A DNA stretch of 64,000 bases, taken from positions 1,184,041-1,248,040 of the forward strand of contig NZ_CP117180.1 in NCBI RefSeq assembly GCF_033971325.1. The letters run 5' to 3'. This document shows, piece after piece, positions 19,987-23,953 of this stretch. Positions within the stretch are counted from its first letter, which is position 1. Each line of letters starts with the position of its first letter. The notes under the pieces were generated by a model. It worked only from the letters and a program-made list of their open reading frames with translations. It did no database searches and had not been told where the DNA came from. This stretch comes from Hydrogenobacter sp. T-2 (lineage in GTDB: Bacteria; Aquificota; Aquificia; Aquificales; Aquificaceae). The position numbers and the translations under genes are program-made.

Positions 19987-20847
19987 GTGTCTTCAAAAGA
20001 TATAACTCTCAAAGACATCTTTGAGGAAGTCCCACACAGGCTTAGCAAAATCCTCTCTCCAGCCCCCATTAAAGAGCTGTTGCCAACATCTCTGCCATCC
20101 ACTGAGCTAAGAGTGGACTTCTTGGCAAGACTTGAGGATGAAAGCATCCTACATATGGAGTTCCAATCCTTTAACGATACAAACATGCCTTGGAGGATGC
20201 TTCGCTACTATACCGCCATAGCAGAAAAATACAAAACACACAACATAAAACAGCTCCTCGTGTATGTGGGAAATGAAAAGCTCAGGATGAAGCCCTCTCT
20301 CAAGATTAAGAACTTAGTCTTTAGGTATGAAATACTTGACATAAGACAGATAGACTGCAAGATACTACTTGAGAGCCAAGACCCTGTAGATAGGATAATG
20401 GCATGTTTGTGCAAAGTAGAGGATGAAAGATATTTGATAGAGAAACTTGTGGAGACGCTGGAAGGCATGGAAGAGGAACAAAGGAAAGACTACATCATGA
20501 AGCTATTGACATTGACAGAGCTAAGACCTAACTTAAGGATAAGGCTAACAGAGGAGGTCAAGCACATGCCTATAGTGGTTAGACCTGAGGATATAAAACT
20601 GCCAAAGAGGAAGTTGAGAAAGGACATCTTATACAGGCTTGGTCTTGAGGAAGGGTTCATAAAAGCATTGCAAGATACAGTGTTGACTCTTATAAGGGGC
20701 AAGATTGGAAGAGTTCCTGAAGGTGTAGAAGTAAAGGTGAAGGGCATAAGGGACAGGGAATATTTAAATGCTTTGATAGAGAAGTTAATAAACTCTGGAG
20801 ATGTTTTGGAGCTTTTGAAGGAGGAGAGGCTTTTGAGTTGTAATTGA
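19987..20847 (+). CDS. Rpn/PD-(D/E)XK nuclease-family transposase-like protein, intact copy
   Basis: 286 residues beginning at a GTG. The nuclease core is visible: LRVDFLARLEDESILHMEFQSFND (D and E-x-Q positions of PD-(D/E)XK) followed by KQLLVYVGNEKLRM. The Rpn family in E. coli comprises recombination-promoting nucleases. An extended -10 (TGATATAAT) ends 6 nt before the GTG, so the message is probably leaderless. A second, broken copy lies at 39341-40128, and an 89-nt segment (20521-20609) is shared with it with 2 mismatches. Confidence 0.8.
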   Translation: MSSKDITLKDIFEEVPHRLSKILSPAPIKELLPTSLPSTELRVDFLARLEDESILHMEFQSFNDTNMPWRMLRYYTAIAEKYKTHNIKQLLVYVGNEKLRMKPSLKIKNLVFRYEILDIRQIDCKILLESQDPVDRIMACLCKVEDERYLIEKLVETLEGMEEEQRKDYIMKLLTLTELRPNLRIRLTEEVKHMPIVVRPEDIKLPKRKLRKDILYRLGLEEGFIKALQDTVLTLIRGKIGRVPEGVEVKVKGIRDREYLNALIEKLINSGDVLELLKEERLLSCN

Positions 20848-20912
20848 CAGGAAAGCACTATATAATAACTTGCAATTTGGTTTATAATGGAAAAATCTCT
20901 GGGTTTTTGCTA

Positions 20913-22490
20913 ATGGACTACTCCGCACTTGACCTTATAGCTGAGCCAATTCTGATAGTGGATAAAGAGCATCGCGTTCTCTTTGCTAACAAAAAGGCAA
21001 GAGAGGTATACGGTAATAGGGCGGAAACCTGTTATGGGCTTTCTCATTCCTTCTCAAAACCATGTTATGAATACGAGGGGCATCCATGTCCAGTTAGAAA
21101 CATAAGAGAGCTGGGAATAGAAAAGTCTGGCGTCCTACATGTTCACAAAACGCAAGAGGGTGAAAGGTATTTTTATGTGTTAGCTCACTACCTTCCGGAA
21201 AAGGGCTTTTATGTGGAGTTTCATATAGACCTCTTTGACCTTATGGAAAATCTAAAGCTCAGTGGTCAGAGGACGGAGCTTTTTCTCTCTGGAGGTCCTG
21301 TGGTCTTTTTCCAATGGAAAAGGGCAGAGGGCTGGCCTGTGGAGTTTGTTTCACCCAATGTGTCTGAGTTTCTTGGATATACAGCAGAGGACTTTATATC
21401 GGGAAGAATAAGGTATTCAGAGCTTATACATCCAGAAGACTTGGAAAGGGTAGCCCAAGAGGTAATGTATCACACAGAGAAGAAATCTCCCTTTTGGACA
21501 CATCAAGATTATAGGCTTAGAAGAAAAGACGGAGAATACATATGGGTTCTTGACTATACCGTGCCATTATTTAATGACAAGAATGAGATAATTGGCTACT
21601 ATGGATACTTGCTAAATATAACTGAAAAACATGAACAGGAAGAGCTTTTCCATATTCTTGCAGAGTCAAACCCTCATGCGGTGCTGGTCTACGATTTTTG
21701 GCAAAACAAAATTCTCTATTTGAACCAAAGGGCGGTAAAACTTTTTGAATATAATAGAGAGGAATTACTTAACATTGAGGACCCTATAAGCCTCGTATTT
21801 TGGAGAGATAGAGAGGTGGCTTATGAAAACTTAAAGAAAAGGAAAGAGGGTGACAGAAGTCCTATCAGCTACAAGCTAAGAATTGTTACCAAGCGTGGAA
21901 AAATAAAATGGGTCAACTTATCTTCAAGTGTAGCGTCTTTCAAAGGAAAGACTGTCTCCATAATAACTCTCGTAGACATATCAGAAGAGGTAAAAAGGGA
22001 AAGAACCCTAATAAAACTTGCCACAAGAGACCAGCTTACTGGCATATTTAACAGACGGGCACTTATCCACGATTTTGAGCGTCTTTTATTTCAGGCAAAA
22101 AGATACCAGACACCCTTTTCTTTGGTCATCCTTGACATAGATAACTTCAAAAAGTTAAACGATACATACGGACATCTTGTAGGAGATAGGGTTTTAAAGG
22201 AGATGGTTAAAGAAATAAGGAGGATTCTGCGAAAAAGCGATATCTTTGGAAGATGGGGTGGTGAGGAGTTCTTGGTGCTTCTTCCTATGACCTCGGAGCC
22301 TTACGCACCTGCAGAGAAGATAAGACAAGCTGTGGAAAGCCATAAGTTTTTTGGAAACTTGAAGATAACCATATCTCTGGGAGCAACCACTTACAGGGAA
22401 GGTGATACTATGGACAGCATGATTTCAAGGGCGGACGAAGCACTTTACCAAGCAAAACAGCAGGGGAAAAACAGGGTGGTAGTTATCTAA
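20913..22490 (+). CDS. PAS-PAS(-PAS)-GGDEF diguanylate cyclase
   Basis: 525 residues from the ATG at 20913; longer starts would precede a TATAAT at 20883-20888. An N-terminal PAS-like domain ([20 protein letters not shown]) carries an unusual cysteine/histidine group ([22 protein letters not shown]). A PAS/PAC module ([16 protein letters not shown] to [14 protein letters not shown]) and a third PAS ([15 protein letters not shown]) follow. The C-terminal GGDEF domain has [25 protein letters not shown] and an RKSD I-site five residues before it, so it likely makes c-di-GMP with product inhibition. No transmembrane segment is seen, so it should sense a cytoplasmic signal. Confidence 0.9.
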
Positions 22491-22984
22491 GAGAGCTGTT
22501 CTTTTAGCTTCTCGTTCATTTCTTGGACCTTTTGCCTTAAGGATGCCTCATAGTCTTTTAGTTTTTTCTCAAGCTCTGGGTATTTTATGGAGAGTATCCT
22601 TATGGCAAGAAGCCCTGCGTTTGTGCCGTTGCCTATGCCTACGGTTGCCACTGGGATGCCTGCTGGCATCTGCACTATGGAGTAAAGGGAGTCCACACCA
22701 TTTAGGTGTTTAGAAGGCACGGGGACACCTATCACTGGTAGTGTGGTCATGCTGGCGGTCATGCCCGGGAGATGTGCGGAGCCTCCTGCACCTGCTATTA
22801 TTACCTCTATGCCTCTTTCTCTTGCGGTTTTTGCATATTCATACATGGCTTCTGGCGTTCTGTGGGCGGATACAACCCTGACTTCGCAGGGGACTTCAAA
22901 CTGCACAAGGACTTCGTAAGCAGGCTTTAGCCACTCCCAGTCAGAAAGACTACCCATTATTATTCCCACCAAAGGACTTTTCAT
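22487..22984 (-). CDS. purE: N5-carboxyaminoimidazole ribonucleotide mutase
   Basis: 165 residues from the ATG at 22984. PurE moves the carboxyl of N5-CAIR to C4 in purine synthesis. Motifs [32 protein letters not shown] and [15 protein letters not shown] are diagnostic. The longer frame from 23020 crosses the divergent promoter and the start of the opposite gene, so it is rejected. The stop overlaps the convergent GGDEF gene by 4 nt. Confidence 0.95.
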
Positions 22985-23000
22985 GCATATAATTTTATGC
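22985..23000. promoter_or_regulatory. 16-bp divergent leaderless promoter, purE and coiled-coil gene
   Basis: The entire gap, GCATATAATTTTATGC, lies between two ATG codons in opposite directions. TATAAT (22988-22993) faces right and TAAAAT (22997-22992) faces left, overlapping by two bases. Each hexamer is exactly 7 nt from its start codon. The outer bases GCATA/TATGC are an exact inverted repeat that extends to the CAT/ATG start codons themselves. Confidence 0.7.
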
Positions 23001-23405
23001 ATGAGTATAGAGAAGTTCATGAAAGAGCTTTTTGATATGGAAGAGAGCCTCTGGCAAAGGCGTATGAAAGTCCTTTATCAGTATAAGAGAGTTCAAGAAA
23101 TGAGGCAGAAGATACGAGAGATTGAAGAGGTATTTGAGGAAGAGGTAGGCATTGACCTTCAAACCGCCCTATACTTCTTGGAAGAATACGAGAGCAACCC
23201 TCAGAGCTTTGAGAGAATAAAGGAAACACTGGGAGAAGAGGTTTTTCAGACGATAGAAGCTCTTGCGGACAGGATTAGGCAGATAAGGGATATGAAGAAG
23301 GAAGTGGATGAGGTGGAAAAGGAGATATTTGAAATAGATGCGGAGATAGACGATACCTTTGAAAAGCTCCAAGAATACAAAAGAAAAATTCAGGAAATGC
23401 TATGA
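23001..23405 (+). CDS. Coiled-coil protein of unknown function
   Basis: 134 residues from the ATG at 23001, set by the divergent promoter 7 nt upstream. Almost the whole protein is predicted helical and strongly charged ([40 protein letters not shown]), without membrane segments. The stop overlaps the ATG of the ferredoxin-like gene (ATGA), implying joint synthesis. Family not recognised; it could be an adaptor for the Fe-S protein, which is only inference. Confidence 0.65.
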
Positions 23406-23953
23406 AAAGACCCATAATGCTAATAGACCTTGACAGGTGCATAGGTTGTCTTTCTTGTGAGGTTGCCTGTAAACAGGAAAAGGGGCTTGAGAACTTTGGC
23501 ATAAGACCCATGAAGGTCTTCAGAGTAAGTGGCATTGGAGACAAGGCGGATGCCTTCTTTCTGCCTATGAACTGTTTTCACTGTGAGCCAGCACCCTGCG
23601 TTTACGCCTGTCCTACCTCCGCCATGAGGAAAAGAGAGGATGGCATAGTCTATGTGGAAGAGCTAAGGTGCATAGGCTGTAAGGCGTGCATAATTGCCTG
23701 TCCCTATGGAGCTATAGCCTTTAATCCTGCCACCATGAAGGTGGAAAAGTGTGATTATTGCTACAAAAGAGTGGATGCTGGACTTTTACCCTCTTGCGTG
23801 TCTAAGTGTGTTACCAACTGCCTGTATTTTGTGGAGATAGAGGATGTGCCAAAGGAAAGACATACCGCAAGAAGAATAGACTCAGAGCTATATAGAGAGC
23901 TTTTCCGCTGGAGGTTAGAAGAAGAACCTCTTGAGGTCCAAAACAATCCCTAA
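23402..23953 (+). CDS. Four-cluster ferredoxin-type electron-transfer subunit (DmsB/NrfC-like)
   Basis: 183 residues with sixteen cysteines in four groups: CIGCLSCEVAC, CFHCEPAPCVYAC, CIGCKACIIAC and CDYCYKRVDAGLLPSCVSKC. This is the arrangement of the B subunit of molybdopterin oxidoreductases (DMSO reductase, formate dehydrogenase, polysulfide reductase). No signal peptide, so cytoplasmic. No catalytic or membrane subunit is adjacent, so the partner must be encoded elsewhere. The end overlaps the convergent prepilin peptidase gene by 39 nt. Confidence 0.88.
   Translation: MKRPIMLIDLDRCIGCLSCEVACKQEKGLENFGIRPMKVFRVSGIGDKADAFFLPMNCFHCEPAPCVYACPTSAMRKREDGIVYVEELRCIGCKACIIACPYGAIAFNPATMKVEKCDYCYKRVDAGLLPSCVSKCVTNCLYFVEIEDVPKERHTARRIDSELYRELFRWRLEEEPLEVQNNP

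Follow-up and report, generated by a model that had tools for sequence, protein, structure and literature searches.

Bidirectional -10 promoters have been described before, and so have leaderless genes in Aquificae. In bidirectional promoters (Warman et al., 2021, as summarized in PMC12825309 and PMC10268837), a pseudo-symmetric -10 region is shared and RNA polymerase could bind it in either orientation. Divergent transcription start sites are most often 18 bp apart, spacings of 10 and 23 bp being common too (PMC12825309), and in the 18-bp class the -7T and -11A positions coincide reciprocally, giving TANNNTA (PMC10268837). Leaderless genes with an ORF-adjacent -10 element have been described separately: 20.7-32.4% leaderless genes were predicted in two Aquificae genomes carrying the signal, a TATAAT-like box about 12 bp upstream, and Aquifex aeolicus is among the genomes that display it (PMC3160421). 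In Deinococcus, experiments showed that a -10 motif can suffice for leaderless expression, which rises when a -35 is added (PMC12340547); a term search of that paper returned no divergent or bidirectional case. Closely juxtaposed divergent promoters have been called common in M. tuberculosis (PMC3898074), and in A. aeolicus high read coverage was reported in overlapping head-to-head upstream regions, without explanation there (PMC4227106).

The locus considered here lies in a 64,000-nucleotide stretch of the genome of Hydrogenobacter sp. T-2 (the window), in which positions 22985-23000 (GCATATAATTTTATGC) form the whole 16-bp gap between purE and a divergent rightward ORF. The basic geometry given in the earlier note on this DNA was confirmed on the sequence: the ATG of purE is at 22984 (minus strand) and that of the rightward ORF at 23001 (plus strand), and the gap holds two opposed hexamers, TATAAT (22988-22993, plus strand) and TAAAAT (22997-22992, minus strand), which have 22992-22993 (AT) in common and each stand 7 nt from their ATG. 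The features of the locus are:

22988..22993, plus strand: putative rightward -10 element TATAAT, 7 nt 5' of the ATG at 23001, based on enrichment in the window and conservation in congeners
22992..22997, minus strand: putative leftward -10 element TAAAAT, 7 nt 5' of the purE ATG at 22984, based on conservation in congeners
22988..22997, no strand: conserved core of the predicted bidirectional promoter, TATAATTTTA, based on invariant columns and alignment A1
22982..22984, minus strand: purE start codon, with an N-terminus that aligns in relatives, and predicted transcription start (A at 22984)
23001..23003, plus strand: rightward start codon, with an N-terminus of length comparable to congeners, and predicted transcription start (A at 23001)
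22487..22984, minus strand: purE, AIR carboxylase (Pfam PF00731, E 4.3e-67)
23001..23405, plus strand: 134-aa predicted coiled-coil protein with homologues in congeners
23402..23953, plus strand: 4Fe-4S ferredoxin-type protein (Pfam PF13247), second gene of the rightward unit

The exact 16-mer of the gap occurs once in the 1.69-Mb genome, and it contains no Shine-Dalgarno-like sequence on either strand. The first T of either hexamer stands 13 nt 5' of its ATG, in agreement with the leaderless pattern of a TANNNT about 12 bp upstream. Start codons were assigned from the ORFs and from relatives; in-frame upstream ATGs exist at 22983 (plus strand) and 23002 (minus strand), each of which lies upstream of its own -10 hexamer and so could not be served by these promoters. 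The ferredoxin-type gene (23402) overlaps the stop of the 134-aa ORF by 4 bp. A Pfam search with the 134-aa protein gave no match and a scan of the genome contigs found no relatives of it, although homologues, with an (E)ESLWxRRM-like motif near the N-terminus, are present in most congeners. At its other end, purE meets a convergent ORF (20844-22490) that looks like a PAS/GGDEF protein; their stops overlap by 4 bp (22487-22490), so the 3' end of purE is also free of non-coding DNA.

Set against the described systems, the gap resembles the bidirectional promoters in having a near-symmetric -10 region readable on both strands, as TATAAT and TAAAAT, with a conserved core. The predicted start-to-start distance, taken from the start codons, is 17 bp, which is near the published 18 bp, the divergent start sites of such promoters being 7-25 bp apart on opposite strands. 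The register differs from that of the 18-bp class, however: the hexamers overlap by their last two bases (TANNATNNTA), that is by 2 bp and not 5, and the rightward -11A (22989) and leftward -7T (22992) do not coincide. The likeness to leaderless genes with an ORF-adjacent -10 (PMC3160421; Deinococcus-Thermus, PMC12340547) consists of a TANNNT near the ATG, mostly without a classical -35, and no Shine-Dalgarno site; the difference is that here two such motifs are opposed and have bases in common. The M. tuberculosis pair prpD (Rv1130)/Rv1129c (PMC3898074), compared on starts only, is also divergent, and there both transcription starts have been mapped to start codons, giving two leaderless mRNAs. 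In the part of the open-access literature consulted, no account turned up of Aquificae routinely using dual-leaderless promoters with a common core, or of the register TANNATNNTA.

Under dinucleotide shuffles of the window, the full geometry (CATNNNTANNATNNTANNNATG) is expected 0.01 times and occurs once. TATAAT-N7-ATG alone is enriched, with four occurrences against 0.44 expected, while TAAAAT-N7-ATG alone is not significantly so (two against 0.83). Because the latter is by itself at chance level, the leftward half of the promoter rests on conservation. A predicted leaderless signal is present across the genome: TATAATN{0,20}ATG matches 543 times, compared with 203 for a reversed-pattern control, and in 43 of the first 100 matches listed the hexamer lies 6-9 nt from the ATG. 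Among those first 100, an SD-like motif accompanies 1 of the 43 sites with gaps of 6-9 nt versus 9 of the 25 with gaps of 15-20 nt, a contrast consistent with two start modes, one leaderless and one SD-led. The modal gap is also 7 nt at the 70 sites of this genome that have a right-hand ORF, and the base before the ATG is C or T at 62 of them, a bias that fits a pyrimidine-purine initiator with +1 at the A of the ATG.

The earlier note had further supposed that -35 regions must lie inside the opposite genes. Across the same 70 sites, a search for a TTGACA-like -35 at 15-19 bp gave no clear signal (at least 4 of 6 positions matched at 20 sites, versus 11-16 in three control ranges). In the window, the best matches at 16-18 bp were 2/6 rightward and 3/6 leftward, which does not make a two-hexamer sigma-70 promoter at these spacings; a rightward 4/6 match, TTCCCA, occurs at 19 bp. 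As neither coding region nor the leaderless sites of the genome show a clear -35, there is no need to place one inside the neighboring gene, and that supposition is unsupported.

To follow the gap in relatives, we took the region upstream of purE from 13 congeneric genomes, including that of the window, and made column counts on 11 species with two near-duplicates left out. The core TATAATTTTA is retained in nearly all congeners at a nearly constant distance from purE. Seven of its ten columns are invariant over the 11 species and the remaining three are each conserved in 10/11; among four-fold degenerate columns of purE, 1 of 53 is invariant, and for most the majority base is found in 4-7 of the 11 species. 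The anchored extraction is biased toward finding the core, and the same block appears in an independent alignment (A1) of eight sequences. Two of the 13 congeners are exceptions, L010, where the rightward hexamer is CATAAT, and L017, which is without a leftward TANNNT. The expectation that relatives would keep both hexamers stands genus-wide, weakened in one half each by L010 and L017; the outer symmetry is not conserved in relatives. In this genome the symmetry that had been said to continue into the two ATG codons does exist, with CATGCATATAATTTTATGCATG (22982-23003) equal to its own reverse complement at 20 of 22 positions. The outer arms (GCA on the left, TGC on the right) drift, however: on the right, TGC is retained by the three closest species alone, and relatives show AAGT, AATC, ATCC and ATCT. 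Because of this drift, the extension of the palindrome appears better explained by the two start codons (CAT...ATG) and a pyrimidine on each side than by a conserved element, and a meaning for the symmetry is unsupported.

The promoter has survived exchanges of the gene opposite purE. In L005 and L017 the 134-aa ORF is gone and the same TATAAT directly precedes the 4Fe-4S gene, with 8 and 6 nt, respectively, between hexamer and ATG. In L007 and L009 the rightward -10 is kept and the start lies 20-21 nt downstream with an SD-like sequence, so there the promoter is conserved and the leaderlessness of the right side is not. In genome G066 (L008), purE and the 4Fe-4S gene are separated by a 162-bp insert, within which lies a 153-bp repeat whose inverted ends are ATACGCC..AGTGA / TCACTAGGCGTAT (L008, G066:C27, about 1104-1265; L211), which is present in at least 40 places in G066. 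The 13-bp promoter copy CTATAATTTTAAG stands at both ends of the insert, so purE and the 4Fe-4S gene both keep a copy; CTATAATTTTAAG was likely duplicated when the insert arrived. A 25-nt end of the 153-bp repeat also matches 18 places in genome G007. On the purE side of L010 (G080:C52), the copy is CATAATTTTA. Another TATAATTTTA follows 71 bp to the right of it; 20 nt separate the TATAAT of this second copy from the start of the coiled-coil gene, and they include a possible SD (AGGTGA). This may be an independent split of the shared promoter.

In sister genera, purE stands opposite another partner (L013-L015, L018 (tpiA), L021-L024 (murG)), tpiA and murG being what we take these genes to be from their N-termini. 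The purE gaps there are 24-25 bp long, with a TANNNT 6-8 nt from both starts, and the hexamers have TA rather than AT in common (ANNNTANNNT). By our own calculation these sister-genus promoters fit the published 23-bp class. Given the partner exchange within the genus and the purE/tpiA and purE/murG pairs, promoter sharing seems to follow whichever gene adjoins purE and not a functional link.

The compact layout recurs elsewhere in the genome. The pattern TATAATNNTAN{1,6}ATG, with the second TANNNT in the observed register, matches 41 times against 5 in the control. This set, which is conditioned on the second TA, comprises 35 distinct sites in this genome with a right-hand ORF of at least 70 aa, and at up to 18 of the 35 a divergent ORF begins 14-22 bp away (14 with ATG, 4 with GTG); distances to the nearest divergent start peak sharply at 12-23 bp over the 35 sites. 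By our count of an unconditioned sample, 40 TATAATN{6,9}ATG regions, about 29 have a real right-hand ORF and about 9 have a divergent leaderless-type neighbor less than 50 bp away, with gaps of 20 bp or less in 4 of these. Reading from N-termini, the partners in recurrent pairs presumably include gatB, rsmA, secF, trmFO, glmS, atpC, mreB, bioD and pyrB. Of the examples seen in this genome, TATAATTATA (L059/L060, G000:C1:369795-369819) has the greatest symmetry: it lies between divergent ORFs separated by 19 bp and carries a perfect TATAAT on either strand.

In other Aquificaceae, exact matches to the geometry lie mostly between real divergent ORFs (L032-L034, L039, L041, L044), with L035, L040 and L043 as exceptions that do not fall between two long ORFs. 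Exact matches in other families of the order are not so placed. Over the order as a whole, the loose geometry CATNNNTANNATNNTANNNATG shows no enrichment (by our count 20 places versus 18 in the reversed control), and its excess is confined to family f1 (15 versus 7). The layout had been put forward as unusually compact; its recurrence at up to 18 of 35 sites here and in related genera speaks against its being unusual for this organism. Since it recurs in this genome and in other Aquificaceae and the matches in other families are not between divergent ORFs, we regard it, from these genome comparisons, as characteristic of Aquificaceae rather than an oddity of one gap. On balance, we lean toward the broader view that Aquificaceae routinely pack divergent genes around a dual-leaderless bidirectional promoter of this kind (TANNATNNTA, starts about 15-20 bp apart) that would be -10-only, serve two mRNAs with no untranslated DNA outside the promoter, and have an exchangeable partner.

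Three other explanations of the gap have to be weighed. Only one hexamer, most likely TATAAT, might be used in vivo, the other gene having a leader and being transcribed from a promoter inside its neighbor. The chance-level frequency of TAAAAT-N7-ATG in the window would agree with this, as would weak promoter-like matches on purE's own strand (22984-22956) and on the plus strand in the right-hand ORF (23146-23175). Relative to the starts that they would need to serve, however, both matches are downstream, and their number is close to the shuffle mean (2 versus 0.8); a promoter further upstream would still leave both starts without an SD. Both hexamers are moreover conserved genus-wide, the right half included where the right gene has changed, and we consider one-way use unlikely.

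If the near-perfect 22-bp palindrome CATGCATAWAATTWTATGCATG were an operator bound by a dimeric regulator of both genes, the symmetry at 20 of 22 positions would be accounted for and the resemblance to -10 elements would be secondary. Beyond the three closest species the right arm is not intact, though, the 16-mer is single in the genome, and the other divergent pairs have the core in common and not the arms; with the outer arms not conserved in relatives, we rejected this reading as highly improbable. Nor do we give much credence to a chance origin, in which an AT-rich 16-bp gap would carry two -10 look-alikes, without function in at least one direction, in a layout never selected. Hexamers of this kind are short and TANNNT is frequent in AT-rich gaps, but the geometry is expected 0.01 times per window, the core is conserved, and the arrangement recurs at many divergent pairs.

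The reading offered in the earlier note, two overlapping and opposed leaderless -10 promoters, remains the best one, given the conserved hexamers, the peak at 6-9 nt and the pyrimidine at -1 in 62 of 70 sites. In our view the gap probably acts as one housekeeping (sigma-A) promoter that works in both directions and makes two leaderless mRNAs. Sigma-A would recognize the -10 motif on either strand of TATAATTTTA, with RNA polymerase binding the same DNA either way round but in one orientation at a time, so that the two directions are presumably mutually exclusive. The polymerase would melt the shared AT-rich core and start at the A of the downstream ATG (22984 or 23001), so both mRNAs would be leaderless, and both would be translated without a Shine-Dalgarno site. 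As no -35 would be required, the coding sequence upstream of each promoter would not be visibly constrained. In five tested E. coli bidirectional promoters, basal transcription was too low for competition between directions (PMC12825309), so occlusion at the purE gap should not be assumed.

Should the 5' ends be confirmed, 16 bp would be enough to hold a complete expression unit for two genes, with a promoter, a start site and a translation start for each, which is close to the smallest size possible. Because the layout recurs, at up to 18 sites in this genome and in sister genera, it offers a ready set of cases in which to study how polymerase chooses its direction on a shared core and whether the two directions occlude each other, and paired -10 motifs could guide start-codon annotation in Aquificaceae. 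The arrangement is also relevant to the ways in which small hyperthermophile genomes may shed intergenic DNA by means of leaderless starts and -10-only promoters.
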